Below, piece by piece: positions 2,444 to 26,017 of a stretch of 64,000 nt of DNA. How positions within the stretch are numbered: position 1 is the first letter of the stretch; each line of letters begins with the position of its first letter. A program made the position numbers and the translations under genes. Under the pieces are notes generated by a model. That model searched no databases and was not told the origin of the DNA. It saw only the letters and a program-made list of their open reading frames with translations. The stretch is taken from NCBI RefSeq assembly GCF_000739695.1, contig NZ_BBIO01000001.1, positions 248,001 to 312,000 of the forward strand, read 5' to 3'. This DNA comes from Tepidicaulis marinus (GTDB lineage: Bacteria; Pseudomonadota; Alphaproteobacteria; Parvibaculales; Parvibaculaceae).

Positions 2444-3637
2444 TCAGGCGCCCTCTTTTCGCGTGCCGGCTAGAAGCGGGGCGAACAGAACGACAAAGCC
2501 ACCAAAGGCGCCGATCCAGAAAAGCGCGCTGAGATAGAGGAATTGCTGCGGCGCACCCGAAACGGACATGAAAAGGCGCGCAAGCGCTGCGGCAATGATG
2601 AAAATATAAACGAGGCTGAGGCCCATACTTGCCGTTAAGGGGCGGCCCGTATGGCCGAGCGCGGCGCGGCTCATCACTGCCAGCGTCATGACGCCCATGG
2701 CGCCGATGGTCCAGGCATGAAGCCCGTCGCCATAAACGAGAAAGGCGGGAAAGAAATGCGCGGCGGCAAGCGCGAAGAAGCCGAGCGGCACGAAGAGATA
2801 ACCTGCGTGGAGCACGATCACCAGCGGCTCGGCGAAGGTGCGCTCACCCGCCCAGCGGGCCAGCCGGAGAAGATGAAAGACCCCTGCGACAAGGCAAAGC
2901 CAGGCGGTCGCGGCATGAAAGGGCAGCGCGGCCCAGCTTAAAAGCGCAAGGCCCGCCGCCGCCATGGCGGCAATGTCGAACCGGTTGAAGGGCACGGGCA
3001 AGCGCCCTTCCCCCTGTTTCACGAGCCAGTTGCGCGTAAAGCTTGGAATGATGCGCCCGCCGATCAGCATGATGAGAAAGAGAATGGCGCCGGTGCCGAG
3101 CCGCGCGCCGTAACCGTAAGCCGCGCCGGGCTGCATGGCTTCCACATGATAAAGCACATTGCCGGCGCCGAGCAGGCAGAGCAGCACGAGGACTTTCAGG
3201 TTGCGCCAGTTCTTGCCCGCAATCACCTCCCGCCCGATCACGGCGGCAAGGACAAAAAGAAAGCTGACATCGGCAAGCGCGGCGATGGGTCCGCCCGTAA
3301 AGGCGGAAAAGAAAAGCGCGAGACGCCCGGCGAGCCAGAGCAGCACAAGCGCCAGAAGCGGCGCGCCGGTTATAGGCAGATGGCCCGTCCAGTTCGGCAC
3401 GGCGGTGAGCAGAAATCCGGCGATGACGGCGGGAATATAGCCATAAAGCATTTCATGGACATGCCAGTCGGCAGGCGCCAGATGACTGGGCAGCGTCAGG
3501 GCGCCCGATACCATGAGGGTCCAAAGGCAAAGCGCGATCACGGCCCAAAGCCCGGCGAAGAGAAAGAACGGCCGGAAGCCGAAACTGAGCAGCACCGGTC
3601 CCTGATAAGCGCGTATCCGCTTGGCTGACGAGGTCAT
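2444..3637 (-). CDS. nnrS: NnrS family heme/copper membrane protein
   Basis: A 397-residue polytopic membrane protein with about twelve hydrophobic helices. The opening LLSFGFRPFFLFAGLWAVIAL, the HVHEMLYGY motif (about residues 59-67) and the GGRIIPSFTRNWL motif are family signatures of NnrS. In known denitrifiers NnrS is a heme- and copper-containing protein that protects cells from NO stress, and the gene is induced by NO. Here it runs toward norB and diverges from a CopD-like gene. A near-consensus NsrR operator stands 54 bases upstream of its ATG, which fits NO-derepressed expression. Confidence 0.93.
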   Translation of the reverse strand: MTSSAKRIRAYQGPVLLSFGFRPFFLFAGLWAVIALCLWTLMVSGALTLPSHLAPADWHVHEMLYGYIPAVIAGFLLTAVPNWTGHLPITGAPLLALVLLWLAGRLALFFSAFTGGPIAALADVSFLFVLAAVIGREVIAGKNWRNLKVLVLLCLLGAGNVLYHVEAMQPGAAYGYGARLGTGAILFLIMLIGGRIIPSFTRNWLVKQGEGRLPVPFNRFDIAAMAAAGLALLSWAALPFHAATAWLCLVAGVFHLLRLARWAGERTFAEPLVIVLHAGYLFVPLGFFALAAAHFFPAFLVYGDGLHAWTIGAMGVMTLAVMSRAALGHTGRPLTASMGLSLVYIFIIAAALARLFMSVSGAPQQFLYLSALFWIGAFGGFVVLFAPLLAGTRKEGA

Positions 3638-19827: not shown

Positions 19828-22110
19828 TTAGCGCACGAGGCGCGAGGTGCTGTCGAGGTCGTACGCGGCGAAAGCTGCCATATTGACGAGATCGGAAACC
19901 GTCGCGCCCAGATTGACGATCTGCACGGGCCGGGAAAGACCGGTCAGAAGCGGGCCGATCACTTCCGCCCCGCCCAGCGATTGCAGCATCTTCGTCGAGA
20001 TGGAAGCGGAATGAATGGCCGGCATGATCAGCACATTGGCCGGGCCCGAAAGGCGGCAGAAGGGATAAAGCGCCATCGCTTCCTTGCTGAGCGCCACGTC
20101 GGCGGCCATTTCCCCGTCATATTCGAAATCGGCGCCGCGCTTGTCGAGAATTTCCGTTGCCTCGCGCATCAGCGTCGAGCGCTCGCCCGAGGGATGGCCG
20201 AAGGTGGAATAGGCCAGCATCGCGACGCGCGGCTCCTGGCCGAGGCGGCGGTTGACTTCCGCCGCCTGCATCGCGATATCGGCCAGCTCCTCGGCGCTCG
20301 GCATGTCGTGCACATTGGTGTCCGCGACAAGCACGGTGCGCCCGCGCACGATAATCATGGAAATGCCCATGACGCGGGAGCCCGGCAAGGGGTCGATGAC
20401 GCGCAGTACTTCGGAAAGCGCCACGGCGTAATTGCGCGTCGCCCCCGTCACCATCGCATCGGCATCACCTTGCTCGACCATGCAGGCGCCGAAGACATTG
20501 CGGTCGTTATTGACCATGCGCAGGCAGTCGCGCTGCAGATAGCCGCGCCGCTGCAAGCGTTTGTAGAGAAAATCCGCGTATGCGTCGGCACGGTCGGAAA
20601 CGCGCGAATTGACGATTTCGAGCGCCGTGCTGGAATCGAGACCGATGGAGCGCATCGTCTCGCGGATGCGCTCTTCCCGGCCGATCAGCACCGGGTGGCC
20701 GAGTTCGAGATCGCGGAAGGTGAGCGCGGCGCGGATGACGCGTTCTTCTTCGCCTTCGGCAAAGACGACGCGCTTGGGGTCGCGTTTGACGTGTTCATAG
20801 ATCACCTGCAGCGAGCCTTGGGTGGGGTCGAGGCGGGCGGAGAGTTTGTTTTTATATCCTTCCATATCGACGATCGGCATGCGCGCAACGCCGGTATCCA
20901 TCGCCGCTTTCGCAACGGCGGAGGGAATCTCGCGGATAAGGCGCGGATCGAAGGGCACGGGGATGATGTAGCTTGCACCGAAGCGCGGGCGCTCGCCCTG
21001 ATAGGCGGCGGCCACTTCATCGGGCACGTCTTCGCGCGCAAGTTTCGCCAGCGCCTCGGCGGCGGCGATTTTCATCGCTTCGTTGATCGTCGTCGCGCGC
21101 ACATCGAGCGCGCCGCGGAAGATGTAAGGAAAGCCGAGAACGTTATTGACCTGGTTCGGGTAGTCCGAGCGGCCCGTCGCCATGATCGCATCGTCGCGCA
21201 CTTCGGCGACTTCCTCCGGCGTGATTTCCGGGTCCGGGTTCGCCATTGCAAAGATGATCGGCTTGTCGGCCATGGAGGCGACCATTTCAGGGGTCAGCGC
21301 GCCTTGCACGGAAAGGCCGAGAAAGACATCCGCGCCCTTCACCGCTTCTTCGAGCGTGCGCTTGTCGGTCGCCACCGCATGGGCCGACTTCCACTGATTC
21401 ATGCCTTCTTCACGGCCCTGATAGATGACGCCCTTCGTATCGCAAAGGATCGCCTGATCATGCGGCAGGCCCATCGCCTTGATCAGCTCGAGGCAGGCAA
21501 TCCCCGCCGAGCCTGCGCCGTTGACGACGACGGTAATGTCCTTGATGTCCTTGCCCGTCAGATAAAGCGCGTTGATGAGACCGGCGGCGGAAATGATCGC
21601 CGTGCCGTGCTGGTCGTCATGGAAGACGGGAATGTTCATGCATTCGCGCAGGCGCTCTTCGATGACGAAGCAGTCCGGCGCCTTGATGTCTTCCAGGTTG
21701 ATGCCGCCGAAAGACGGTCCCAGATAGCGCACCGAATTGATGAAAGCATCGACATCTTCCGTTTCGATCTCAAGATCGATGGAATCGACATCGGCAAAGC
21801 GCTTGAAGAGCACCGCCTTGCCTTCCATCACGGGCTTGGAGGCAAGCGCGCCCAGATTGCCGAGACCGAGAATGGCCGTGCCGTTGGAGATCACCGCGAC
21901 CATGTTGCCTTTGGAAGTGTAGTCGTAGGCGGTGTCCGGGTTCTCGGCGATGGCGCGCACCGGCGCGGCGACGCCGGGCGAATAGGCGAGCGAAAGGTCC
22001 CGCTGCGTGGCCATGGGCTTGGTGGGGGTGATTTCCAGCTTGCCGGGTTTGCCCCGGGCGTGAAAACGCAGCGCTTCTTCGTCGGTAAATGCTTTTTTGT
22101 TTCTCGTCAT
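19828..22110 (-). CDS. maeB: NADP-dependent malic enzyme with phosphotransacetylase-like C-terminus
   Basis: Decarboxylates malate to pyruvate with NADP. It has 760 residues: malic-enzyme and NAD-binding domains at about 1-430 ([40 protein letters not shown]) and a phosphotransacetylase-like domain at about 430-760 ([15 protein letters not shown]). In relatives the latter is regulatory rather than catalytic. ATG 22110 (MTRNKKAF) is chosen. An in-frame TTG at 22125 is less likely. In related genomes it often neighbours mutS. Here the NYN islet separates them. Confidence 0.95.
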
Positions 22111-22434
22111 GGCCAATCTGCGCAACTTTTGAAATGATCGGGCGCGGCGTTCTTAACGCATATTGCTCTGCCCCGCTACCCCCCGCCGCAATCTTTTTGC
22201 CTGAAACACCCCGTGCTTCTTGAGGAAAGACAATGCCTGAAAGGGTTAACGGCTGGGTTAAGGGGCGACATTGGGAAGAAGCTTTATGGTGAAATTTCGG
22301 GCTTTCTAAGTGTGCCTCTTGGGCTATACTCTGCCAATTAATTGAATAGCGCGTGTGCGCTAAAAGGCGACACCGAGTCGGCAAAGACTTTTGAAATCAA
22401 TGCGTTAAAGCTATGTATCGAGCGGAATCGGTTT

Positions 22435-22515
22435 ATGGAAAATGTCAAGAATAAATTTGACAAAGAAGACCGACTGATTATATTTACAACATACCCGCTA
22501 GCGGCGTGCCGTTAG
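22435..22515 (+). pseudogene. Possible N-terminal remnant of a TIGR04282/DUF2064-type glycosyltransferase
   Basis: A 26-codon frame, ATG to TAG. Its segment DRLIIFTTYPLA resembles the conserved N-terminus RLIIFTRYPxPG of the TIGR04282 (DUF2064) nucleotidyltransferase-like family, but it stops before the catalytic KTRL motif. Only about ten residues can be compared, so chance similarity is possible. If real, it is the stump of a gene removed when the islet formed. Confidence 0.3.
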
Positions 22516-22518
22516 CTC

Positions 22519-22553
22519 AAGGGCCGTTTGGGGCGAAAGTCTCGACGGCCTTT
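22519..22553 (+). terminator. Hairpin just before the NYN gene ribosome site
   Basis: AAGGGCCGT pairs with ACGGCCTTT (nine pairs, one G-U) around a 17-base loop, followed by TTGTCGTTT. It could terminate upstream transcription. Because it ends only eight bases before the GGGAGGGGGA ribosome site of the NYN gene, it could also affect that gene's translation. Confidence 0.5.
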
Positions 22554-22572
22554 GTCGTTTGGGAGGGGGAAC

Positions 22573-23199
22573 TTGCGAGTCTATGTCTATGTAGACGGCT
22601 TCAATTTGTATTATCGTGCTCTCAAAGGCACCCAATTCAAATGGCTAAACCTTCAAAAACTCTCTGAAGAACTATTACGTCCTCAAGATCAGCTTGAGGC
22701 GATTAGATATTTTACTGCTAGAGTGAGTTCCCGGGCAGGTGATCCCGATGCGCCGCGGCGTCAACAAATACTCTTCAGTGCACTGTCGACTCTCCCGTCC
22801 CTTCGTTTGCATTATGGAAAGTTTCTATCAAAGACAAAACGCAGGCCGGTCGTTGGTTCGAATCCGCGTCAGTTTGTTGAAATTCACGACACAGAAGAGA
22901 AGGGGTCTGATGTGAATTTGGCCGTCCACCTTGTGAATGATGGATGGCATGGGCGATATGATTTAGCGCTGCTCCTGTCCCAAGATACCGATTTGATTGA
23001 GCCGGTTCGAATTGTAACTAGCGAACTAGGGCTAAAAGTGGGTTTGGTTTGGTTAGATGGTAGGCAGCCTAATGCTGAATTGAAGAATGTAGCGTCATTC
23101 GTTCGACATGTTCGCAAATCCCATCTGGCGAGATCACAATTCCCGGACCCGCTTGTGGCATCTAATGGTAGGACAATTCGTAAGCCAAAGGGGTGGTGA
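22573..23199 (+). CDS. NYN domain protein (LabA/DUF88-like, PIN-fold putative RNase)
   Basis: A 208-residue single-domain protein. I chose TTG 22573 because GGGAGGGGGA lies immediately upstream and translation from it gives RVYVYVDGFNLYYRAL, the classical NYN start with the first active-site Asp. Further acidic motifs are EEKGSDVNLAVHL and LLSQDTDLIEPVR. The acidic cluster of PIN-like nucleases is therefore complete. The gene is clearly poorer in GC and uses AT-rich codons (TTA, AAA, TTT) unlike its neighbours, and it breaks the maeB-mutS order. This suggests horizontal acquisition. Such proteins may be RNases, and some are linked to phage defence, but no partner gene is visible. Confidence 0.88.
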   Translation: MRVYVYVDGFNLYYRALKGTQFKWLNLQKLSEELLRPQDQLEAIRYFTARVSSRAGDPDAPRRQQILFSALSTLPSLRLHYGKFLSKTKRRPVVGSNPRQFVEIHDTEEKGSDVNLAVHLVNDGWHGRYDLALLLSQDTDLIEPVRIVTSELGLKVGLVWLDGRQPNAELKNVASFVRHVRKSHLARSQFPDPLVASNGRTIRKPKGW

Positions 23200-23290
23200 A
23201 GATTATCAATCCAGTTTGATCGACAGTTTCTGATATCTCGGACCTTTACGAAGAATCTGCTAGATTGCGCCTCTTCCATAGAGGGTCAGC

Positions 23291-26017
23291 ATGGCGGTAG
23301 TCGAAAAGAGCGAGGGGTCCGGAGCGAGTGCGGTCGCGGAGGCTGTAAAGCCGGTCACGCCCATGATGGCGCAATATCTGGAGATCAAGAAGGATCACCC
23401 CACTGCCCTCCTTTTCTACCGCATGGGCGATTTCTACGAGCTCTTCTTTGAGGACGCGGTGAAAGCCGCCGAGGCGCTGGACATTACGCTTACGAAACGA
23501 GGTAAGCATTTGGGGGAAGATATCCCCATGTGCGGCGTGCCGGTCCATTCCGCCGATGCCTATCTCGAGCGCCTCATCCGCCTTTCCTTCAAAGTGGCGA
23601 TCTGCGAGCAGACCGAAGATCCGGCGGAGGCGAAAAAGCGCGGGGGCAAATCCGTCGTCCGCCGCGAGGTGGTGCGCCTCGTTACCCCCGGCACTTTGAC
23701 TGAGGATACGCTGCTCGATGCCCGCCGGCACAATTATCTGGCCGCGCTCTCCCGGCTCGGGGCGAGCGACACGCTCAGCCTTGCCTGGGCGGATATTTCG
23801 ACGGGCGATTTCCGCGTCACCAGCATCGCCCCCGGCGAGCTCGGCGCCGAGCTTGCCAGGCTCGAGGCGGGCGAGCTTCTCCTGCCCGACCCGCTTTTCA
23901 CCGATCCCGCGCTTGCCGAGACCTTGCGCCAGACGCGCGCGGCGCTGACCCCGCTCGATCCTTCCCTTTTCGACAGCACGCGGGCCGAGCGGCGGCTGAA
24001 AGAGCTGTTGGAGGTAAGCGCGCTAGACGGTTTCGGCCATTTCAGCCGGGGCGAGCTTTCCGCCGCCGGGGCGCTGATCGATTATCTGGAGCTGACCCAG
24101 GTCGGCAAGATGCCGCGCCTGAAAGCCCCGCGTCCGGCGCGCAGCGGCGCGTTTCTCGCCATGGATGCGGCAACACGCGCCAATCTGGAGCTGACCCGCA
24201 CGCTGTCGGGCGAGGCGCGCGGCAGCCTTCTTTCCGTGATCGACCGCACGGTGACGGGCGCGGGCGCAAGGCTTCTGGCCGAACGGCTGAAGGCGCCGCT
24301 CACCGATCCTGCCGCGATCATTGCCCGGCTCGATGCGGTGAGCTGGTTTCTGGAGGCGCGGGAGCTGAGATCGCGCCTGCGCGCCGAGCTTAAATCCGTA
24401 CCGGACATGGCAAGAGCCCTCTCGCGCGTGACTTCTGGTCGCGGCGGCCCGCGCGATCTTGCCGCCGCAAGGGACGGGCTTGCCGGGGCGCATAAGATTG
24501 CGGCGCTTTTGGCCTCCGCCTCGCAGACCTTGCCGGAGGAAATCGCCCGTGAGCGCGCGGCGCTGGAAGGGCGGGCCGCAGCCCTTCAGGACAGGCTGAC
24601 GGCCGCGCTTAGCCCCGATTTGCCGCTTCTCGCGCGTGATGGCGGCTTCATCGCCAAGGGCTTTTCCGCCCCGCTCGATGAATGCCGGATGCTGCGCGAT
24701 GAAAGCCGCCGGGTCATTGCGGGCCTGCAATCGAAATATGCCGAGGAGACCGGCATTAGCGCGCTCAAGATCAAACACAACAACGTGCTGGGCTATTATA
24801 TCGAGGTCTCGCCGCGCCACGCCGATCCGCTCATGACCGGCGTTCACAAGGATGCCTATATTCACCGCCAGACGCTGGCGAATGCCGTGCGCTTTACCAC
24901 GGTCGAGCTCTCCGACATTGCCTCGCGCATCACCGAGGCGGCGGGCCGCGCCATCGCCCTTGAGATGGAGCTTTTCGCCGAGCTTTCAGAAGCGGTGAAA
25001 GGGGAAGCGGCGGCAATTTCGCAGGCCGCCGAAGCGCTGGCCCGGCTCGATGTCGCAGCTGGTCTTGCCGATCTTGCCGAAGAGCGGCGTTACACACGGC
25101 CCAGGATCGATGACAGCCTTGCCTTTGACGTGACGGGCGGTCGCCATCCTGTGGTGGAAGCGGCGCTTGAAAAGGCAGGCGAGGGGCCCTTCGTGCCGAA
25201 TGACGCCGATCTTTCCGGCGATAAGGGCGAGGCGCGCCGGCTCTGGCTTCTCACCGGCCCCAACATGGCTGGTAAATCCACCTTCCTGCGCCAGAACGCG
25301 CTCATCGCCATTCTGGCGCAAATGGGCTCATACGTGCCTGCCGCCGCCGCTCATATCGGAGTGGTGGACCGGCTCTTTTCCCGCGTGGGCGCTGCGGACG
25401 ATCTCGCCCGCGGGCGCTCCACCTTCATGGTGGAAATGGTGGAAACGGCGGCCATCCTCAATCAGGCCGGACCCCGCTCTCTGGTCATTCTGGATGAAAT
25501 CGGCCGGGGCACGGCGACCTTTGACGGGCTCTCCATCGCCTGGGCGGCGGTCGAGCATCTGCATGAGGAAAACCGCTGCCGGGCGCTTTTCGCCACCCAT
25601 TATCATGAGCTGACCGCCCTTGCCGAAAAGCTGCCCTTCCTCGCCAATGCGACGATGAAAGTGAAGGAATGGCAGGGGGATGTCGTCTTCCTGCATGAAG
25701 TGGGGCCGGGGGCCGCCGACCGCTCTTACGGCATTCAGGTCGCCAAGCTCGCCGGCCTGCCGCCTGCCGTCATCGCAAGGGCGAACGATGTTCTGCATGT
25801 GCTGGAAAGCGGGGCGGAAACACGCGGCGCGGGCCGCATTGTGGATGATCTGCCGCTTTTCTCAGCCGCGCCGAGACCTGCGGATTCGCGCGGGGCGAAA
25901 AAAAGCGCGCTGGAAGAGGCCTTCGAAGCCGTCAATCCGGACGAACTCAGCCCGAAAGAGGCGCTCGATCTTCTTTATGAGCTAAAAGCCCGAAAACTCG
26001 CCGAAAAAGGCGAATAA
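23291..26017 (+). CDS. mutS: DNA mismatch repair protein MutS
   Basis: A 908-residue mismatch-recognition ATPase. The mismatch-binding motif [15 protein letters not shown] is near residues 43-57. Connector, core and clamp domains follow, and the ATPase has Walker A GPNMAGKS (about 656-663), [10 protein letters not shown] and [16 protein letters not shown]. The C-terminus has the usual helix-turn-helix for dimerisation ([19 protein letters not shown]). The ATG lies after AGAGGGTCAGC. It begins the conserved run mutS-glnD-murJ-trpS. Confidence 0.98.

Follow-up and report, generated by a model that had tools for sequence, protein, structure and literature searches.

A predicted two-hairpin RNA accompanies a horizontally acquired NYN-domain gene in Tepidicaulis marinus

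The nyn gene and its insertion between maeB and mutS

The window, a 64,000-nucleotide stretch of the Tepidicaulis marinus genome (contig NZ_BBIO01000001.1, positions 248,001 to 312,000), carries between maeB and mutS a gene, here called nyn, that is preceded in order by a promoter, a two-hairpin RNA, a terminator and a ribosome binding site (Table 1); GGAGG, read from the sequence, lies 6 nt 5' of its TTG start. Relative to 52 mechanically chosen ORFs of at least 120 aa, taken within the window only and including nyn's own longer frame, nyn is poor in GC (0.472 against a mean of 0.618; z -4.6) and in GC3 (0.421 against 0.703; z -3.6), the latter being the lowest of the 52. The GC content of 22207–22572, immediately upstream, is 0.478. 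The part of this segment left of the RNA promoter (22207–22456) is also GC-poor, arrived with the insertion and has no plasmid match.

Table 1. Features at the maeB-mutS junction, in window coordinates
Feature	Positions	Strand	Remarks
maeB	19828–22125	-	left flank of nyn; ORF list and protein match
Inserted GC-poor segment	22207–23252	.	no counterpart in sister species G001; left edge approximate, within about 22207–22290
RNA promoter (predicted)	22457–22484	+	TTGACA, 16-nt spacer, TATATT; 1 mismatch to consensus; ends 6 nt 5' of RNA model start
Two-hairpin partner RNA	22491–22561	+	about 70 nt; covariance model R1, 46 bits, E 1e-12 (window sequence among the 52 model sequences)
Hairpin 1 of partner RNA	22497–22516	+	
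Hairpin 2 of partner RNA	22518–22554	+	intrinsic terminator, then U-rich tail
Ribosome binding site	22561–22569	+	adjoins terminator directly; read from sequence
nyn	22573–23199	+	TTG start, 208 aa; NYN-domain putative endoribonuclease, HEC-09/phrog_7929 family
mutS	23291–26017	+	right flank of nyn; ORF list and protein match

In the nearest relative (G001, 95% identity over a MutS fragment), the corresponding site is empty. Compared by blastn with positions 21301–23600, its locus (L007) is 97% identical until about 22206 and 83% identical again from about 23253; between these two aligned stretches it has about 103 bp where the window has about 1046. A global alignment of the junction produced scattered spurious blocks, and the left edge of the insertion is therefore only approximate. 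From 40 family genomes searched, 30 mutS loci with flanks of about 1.5 kb were fetched; maeB adjoins mutS in 21 of the 29 other than the window's own, and none of the 29 has a nyn match in the fetched flanks. The NYN protein was found in three of 61 genomes searched, namely the window's own (G000), G034, on another contig, and, weakly, G021. The initial annotation, made from the letters of the window, had described an NYN-domain ORF with a TTG start and a good ribosome site, GC-poor with AT-rich codons, that splits a usual gene order and was acquired horizontally; it proposed comparing the junction among relatives, and held that an old core gene would be found at the same place in all of them. 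The ORF, its Pfam match (see below), the ribosome site, the composition and the split order all bear this description out, and the relatives lack nyn at the maeB-mutS site. The empty sister site, the absence from the 29 family loci and the low GC3 support the view that the nyn module is a horizontally acquired insertion. Among the best 80 of 551 relatives, the closest protein matches come from uncultured Tepidamorphus (71% and 69% identity); a homologue with 64% identity (L005) occupies one extremity of an IMG/VR contig, next to an ORF judged by eye to be integrase-like. As regards a donor, no plasmid DNA matched 22207–23260.

The protein matches Pfam NYN (PF01936) at 35.1 bits, above the gathering cut-off of 24.2, and up to an E-value of 1 this was the sole Pfam family, with no ToxN/CptN/TenpN and no Abi_2/AbiD/F match; no NCBIfam model matches it. 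The PADLOC profile HEC-09 (PDLC04163; E 1.7e-47, residues 2–208 of 208) and phrog_7929 (E 2e-55, residues 2–208) cover it almost end to end. An AlphaFold2 model (pLDDT 96.1, pTM 0.90) was used for structure comparison, in which the only neighbours that stand out are VPA0982, of unknown function, and the NYN domain of MARF1 (VIA Z 16.8, 16.5 and 16.1 to 2qip, which is VPA0982, 5yaa and 6fdl; 8.1 for the next row). The other folds in the VIA list, none of them above Z 8.1, were regarded as background. A sequence search of the PDB also returned 2qip (E 6.8e-4); nine sugar isomerases at E 0.12–0.17 in the same search were ignored. Residues D8, N11, E109, K110, D113, D138 and D140 do not vary among 53 proteins whose identity to the window's goes down to 29% (alignment A3, from which L065, having an in-frame stop, was left out). 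The predicted fold and these invariant residues, most of them acidic and presumably catalytic, suggest that the protein is probably a metal-dependent RNase, in keeping with its initial description as an NYN/PIN-like putative RNase. According to PMC11346440, a CRISPR-associated NYN protein of Bacteroides fragilis cuts single-stranded RNA with Mn2+; the role proposed for it there is crRNA trimming, not killing.

A link to defence or toxin systems, also suggested initially, fares less evenly. The name HEC presumably stands for embedding in an Hma locus; the term is absent from the main texts of the two PADLOC papers. The match to this candidate-defence model favours the link, but the one paper found to name HEC-09 reports that in Pseudomonas it goes with susceptibility to phages and not with resistance, as a correlation (PMC12447246).

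A structured RNA coupled to nyn

Over 74 nt, the RNA upstream of nyn in the window folds with an MFE of -36.7 kcal/mol (z -3.66), a value reached by one of 200 shuffled sequences. Inspection by eye of the leaders of 40 homologues revealed the same layout of promoter, hairpins and terminator in nearly all; the IMG/VR homologue L005 has these elements arranged as in the window. When a hairpin pair followed by a T-run was sought within 60 nt upstream of nyn, it was detected in 96 of 121 loci, compared with six of 605 shuffled and nine of 605 distant windows (neither these 121 loci nor the 92 scored for promoters below include L127, which has too short a leader). Alignment A2 comprises 52 of the 101 leaders that passed the hairpin scan, the window, L043 and L100 among them; they were hand-picked, not drawn at random, and aligned without reference to structure. 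All 18 of its base pairs display two-sided compensatory changes, those of hairpin 1 included, and its covariation score is 0.720, against 0.272 after shuffling (0/500) and at most 0.222 after sliding. The share of cells that pair, 94.8% compared with 72.2% when shuffled, is raised by the hand-picking of members after the hairpin scan; such picking does not explain the variety of pair types. The covariation and the shuffled and distant-window controls rule out chance hairpins, and on this comparative evidence the predicted two-hairpin structure may be taken as established.

No Rfam family was matched at the RNA in window positions 22100–23400 (E up to 10) or in eight homologous loci (E up to 1). 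The matches above the gathering score in those eight loci (RNAI, c4-2 and ffh) all lie away from the RNA, and the abiF RNA motif (RF03085) is not among the matches in either set. A known Rfam RNA was therefore rejected as the partner for the window and these eight loci.

To survey the coupling, 123 loci were fetched and one (L121, a duplicate of L005) was dropped; since the remaining 122 are the best 80 of 551 relatives from one collection and 42 of 43 from another, they represent the closer homologues. At a cut-off of 18 bits, an R1 RNA adjoins nyn in 106 of these loci, in three orientations: upstream and co-directional in 93, upstream and divergent in six (L070, L072, L074, L076, L098, L123), and downstream and convergent in seven (L090, L092, L106, L115, L141, L142, L144). 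Thirteen of the 122 loci are redundant at 90% protein identity, and at that level the RNA adjoins nyn in 94 of 109 clusters (87 co-directional, three divergent, four convergent); several divergent or convergent loci are near-identical, so that the 13 amount to seven clusters. Convergent RNAs also occur in a mycobacterial prophage with an annotated integrase (L040) and on a plasmid (L207). Among the 16 loci that lack an R1 match, 13 have a hairpin pair and T-run just upstream of nyn (one of 80 shuffled and two of 80 distant windows do), and three (L093, L160, L161) have neither. In one further case (L197) the R1 match, at 27.3 bits, is separated from nyn by about 850 nt and an intervening CDS.

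Promoter-like sites, allowing up to four mismatches in 12, precede the RNA in 79 of 92 co-directional, six of six divergent and five of seven convergent loci, against shuffled rates of 0.19, 0.09 and 0.04, respectively. In the divergent and convergent loci the RNA cannot serve nyn as a leader, because it points away from the gene or lies beyond its stop codon on the opposite strand; judged by these placements, the RNA is a separate partner with its own putative gene and not merely a leader. In the co-directional loci the RNA model ends a median of 13 nt 5' of nyn, which there probably relies on read-through.

Going by record titles, R1 RNAs beside nyn are spread over about a dozen phyla, many of them represented by metagenome bins; they include Pseudomonadota, Acidobacteriota, Chloroflexota, Planctomycetota, Nitrospirota, Armatimonadota, Verrucomicrobiota, Actinomycetota and Bacteroidota, and the pair is also present on a Leptospira plasmid. 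Some loci have more than one unit: on the Salmonella plasmid pUA1144 (L037), four hairpins at a spacing of 29–33 nt precede the terminator (z -6.4), and two R1 copies are present in each of L110, L128, L227, L237 and L238. Modules of the L037 type were detected on plasmids of ten of 5426 complete E. coli genomes, with at least 80% of the query covered in nine. Taken together, these sequence comparisons give good support to a two-part module of predicted RNA and nyn.

Reciprocal searches, nyn remnants and other NYN clades

In 385 genomes of the window's class, the association was examined starting from the RNA and, separately, from the protein. The search by RNA yielded 18 loci (E up to 4.4e-9), three of which (the window, a Ferrovibrio contig and a Brevundimonas contig) are also in the model alignment A2. 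NYN sequence, recognized with an HMM of 117 proteins (L121, L051, L161, L163 and proteins outside 150–300 aa were left out), lies beside the RNA in 16 of the 18, in two frames in L175 and cut by the contig end in L177. The other two loci hold nyn remnants only: L165 retains the RNA together with a C-terminal piece of nyn, at 96% and 94% identity to an intact module of the same genus, and in L167 there are 36 N-terminal residues (69% identity, E 4e-13). RNA matches with E up to 0.001, mostly weak, occur in 62 of the 385 genomes; twelve weaker loci that were fetched (L182–L193, up to 33.9 bits) lack NYN sequence and behave as chance matches would.

The search by protein found HEC-09 matches (E up to 1e-10) in 23 of the 385 genomes. 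Thirty loci were fetched and 26 scanned, L240–L243 being set aside as other halves of the same genes. The RNA is present in 19 of the 26, weakly in L223 (17.4 bits) and L237 (19.5 bits). Of the seven loci that lack it, L239 is at a contig end and the others belong to another NYN clade: L215, L217, L220, L229 and L231 read EKQ, EKK or EKC where others have EEKG, and L228, which is broken, has the N-terminus common to that clade. The motif rule has exceptions, as L237 reads EKQ yet has a weak RNA, and a motif search in L225, L227 and L238 found no motif though the RNA is present. Since six of the seven RNA-less loci are of the other clade, the RNA chiefly accompanies the EEKGSDVNLA clade, not all HEC-09 matches alike.

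Five strong R1 matches (at least 45 bits) lack an intact nyn of their own (L165, L167, L063:3252, L117:1628 and L084:2163), and nyn remnants adjoin the first three. L063:3252 is a second copy, followed by a C-terminal nyn end; over 86 nt this end is 80% identical to the intact nyn that L063 also carries. For L117:1628 and L084:2163, likewise second copies, the DNA match to the intact module was confined to the RNA, and no nyn remnant was disclosed. The orphan RNA of L084 (2163–2222, 63.9 bits) is near an integrase-like ORF, and a complete module is located about 1.8 kb away.

Among twenty further plasmid and phage homologues, the R1 RNA is clear beside nyn in three (L195, L207, L208); L202 (18.0 bits) and L205 (19.3 bits) have weak matches near nyn. 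Ten others have a different upstream RNA, consisting of one larger hairpin and a terminator (alignment A4), whose fold is tentative: two-sided changes are seen at eight of 18 pairs in the ten sequences, without a control run. These loci include pK245 of Klebsiella, Xanthomonas and other plasmids, and L206, where the RNA is at 1403–1482. That a second RNA occurs with a different set of nyn genes suggests a correspondence between RNA type and NYN clade. Distant NYN homologues in IMG/VR (L148, L150, L152, L156–L159, L162) have a compact upstream hairpin pair that R1 does not recognize and that is possibly a third RNA type. On a Cupriavidus plasmid (L194, 1750–2691), NYN is fused to an Xre/MbcA/ParS C-terminal toxin-binding domain (PF09722, E 2e-8), and the fusion gene has the second RNA class upstream; on a Thermus plasmid (L196, about 2850–3000), a divergent hairpin pair was seen by eye upstream of nyn.

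Possible function and relation to known systems

The conserved upstream RNA points to an RNA-controlled nuclease and not to a lone foreign gene. We consider it reasonably likely that the locus is a type III-like RNA-nuclease module, of the toxin-antitoxin or defence kind, in which an NYN protein replaces ToxN or a HEPN protein and the RNA inhibits the nuclease. In the scheme that we infer, transcription would start at the promoter-like site and mostly stop at hairpin 2, so that free RNA of about 70 nt is made in excess, and occasional read-through would supply nyn mRNA, translated from the site just 3' of the terminator. The RNA would bind the NYN nuclease and keep it inactive; a drop in RNA supply, as on loss of the module or shut-off of host transcription by a phage, would free the toxic nuclease to cut cellular or invader RNA, with addiction, abortive defence or both as the outcome. 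The plasmid and prophage homes of the module make a role in phage defence or addiction plausible. Several observations count against the type III-like reading: the link of HEC-09 to phage susceptibility (PMC12447246), the crRNA trimming proposed for the B. fragilis NYN protein (PMC11346440), the single RNA unit in the window, and the exceptional loci L093/L160/L161, L084:2163, L117:1628 and L197.

The RNA could instead be a required cofactor, guide or sensor of an NYN ribonucleoprotein effector that is active or becomes activated on infection. The strong coupling and the trans arrangement would suit any ribonucleoprotein, and the PADLOC candidate-defence model, the integrase in prophage L040 and the integrase-like ORF by L005 agree with such an effector; nevertheless, retention of the RNA where nyn is broken fits an antitoxin better, and no guide-like variable stretch is apparent by eye in A2, so that we regard this alternative as unlikely, if worth keeping in mind. 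That the RNA is a cis-acting leader only, a transcription attenuator limiting nyn, might be read from the terminator that separates promoter and start codon in 93 of 122 loci, a median of 13 nt before nyn. Yet hairpin 1, unneeded for termination, has compensatory changes, and in 13 loci (seven clusters) the RNA is divergent or convergent, with its own promoter-like site in 11; the divergent and convergent copies rule out attenuation in cis as the whole explanation, and we hold a purely cis-acting role to be quite improbable.

The polarity might also be reversed, with a toxic RNA and an NYN nuclease that removes it, given that NYN proteins studied elsewhere are RNases (PMC11346440) and that tandem RNAs occur. 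Loci that keep the RNA where nyn is broken (L165, L167 and the second copy in L063, which also has an intact nyn) are hard to reconcile with a toxic RNA and fit an RNA antitoxin, and reversal thus appears very improbable. Least credible of all is the picture given initially, of a lone foreign NYN gene beside hairpins that are due to chance or ordinary regulation. Six NYN loci of another clade do lack the R1 RNA, but the window's R1 match (E 1e-12, the window being among the 52 model sequences), the covariation across many phyla, and the excess of upstream hairpin pairs over shuffled and distant windows (96/121 vs 6/605 and 9/605) speak against it. The foreign gene of that picture stands; the unit is larger, taking in the promoter and the conserved structured RNA at 22457–22561.

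Beyond the type III-like reading of the window, there is in our judgement an even chance that these modules constitute an undescribed, phylum-spanning class of RNA-controlled NYN proteins, with a mobile RNA position and RNA types particular to NYN clades, serving as plasmid addiction and phage defence toxins and independent of ToxN and AbiF. In the open-licence PubMed Central literature we found no description of NYN paired with an RNA antitoxin, which may exist elsewhere; in PMC10441182 and PMC10910872, mentions of NYN are confined to tables or legends. Of 72,556 plasmid records, 443 carry NYN genes of this clade or its neighbours, as do many chromosomes and phage contigs, and the annotation of homologues, where shown, is mostly just "NYN domain-containing protein". 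The protein-RNA pairing gives such genes a testable function, adds an RNA family that has no Rfam match, and would place another nuclease fold under RNA control beside ToxN and AbiF. The 4.6-kb E. coli plasmid version (L037 type) makes the module directly testable in E. coli.

Among systems already described, MARF1 and the CRISPR-associated NYN proteins share the NYN fold with the window protein; for the latter a trimming role is proposed, and the passages of PMC11346440 consulted describe no partner RNA gene. PADLOC HEC-09 and phrog_7929 resemble the window protein over residues 2–208, but are one-protein profiles, and HEC-09 also matches an NYN clade without R1 RNA. With ToxIN, CptIN and TenpIN the module has in common a small upstream RNA and a terminator between RNA and endoribonuclease gene, homes on plasmids and chromosomes and, in some members (L037), tandem RNA units (PMC5086642). 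It differs in having an NYN protein, not a ToxN-like one, and mostly one two-hairpin RNA in place of repeats; the solved type III antitoxins are pseudoknotted (PMC5086642), whereas the folding of the NYN partner RNA was computed as nested structures only. The window thus has the upstream RNA and intrinsic terminator of type III systems but neither a ToxN/CptN/TenpN toxin nor tandem repeats, and because of the toxin family and the missing repeats, with the RNA folded as nested only, we do not file the NYN module as type III.

The AbiF protein is a HEPN protein, and AbiF-RCd22 provides another close parallel. In that system, which is prophage-borne, a promoter, a noncoding RNA, an intrinsic terminator and a single toxin gene are combined as in the NYN module, and the RNA neutralizes the toxin both in cis and in trans (PMC12373285); for the NYN module, action in trans is suggested by RNA placement. 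The differences are the NYN (PIN-like) fold, with no Abi_2/AbiD/F protein and no Rfam match, and the divergent and convergent placements that the RNA takes in NYN loci.
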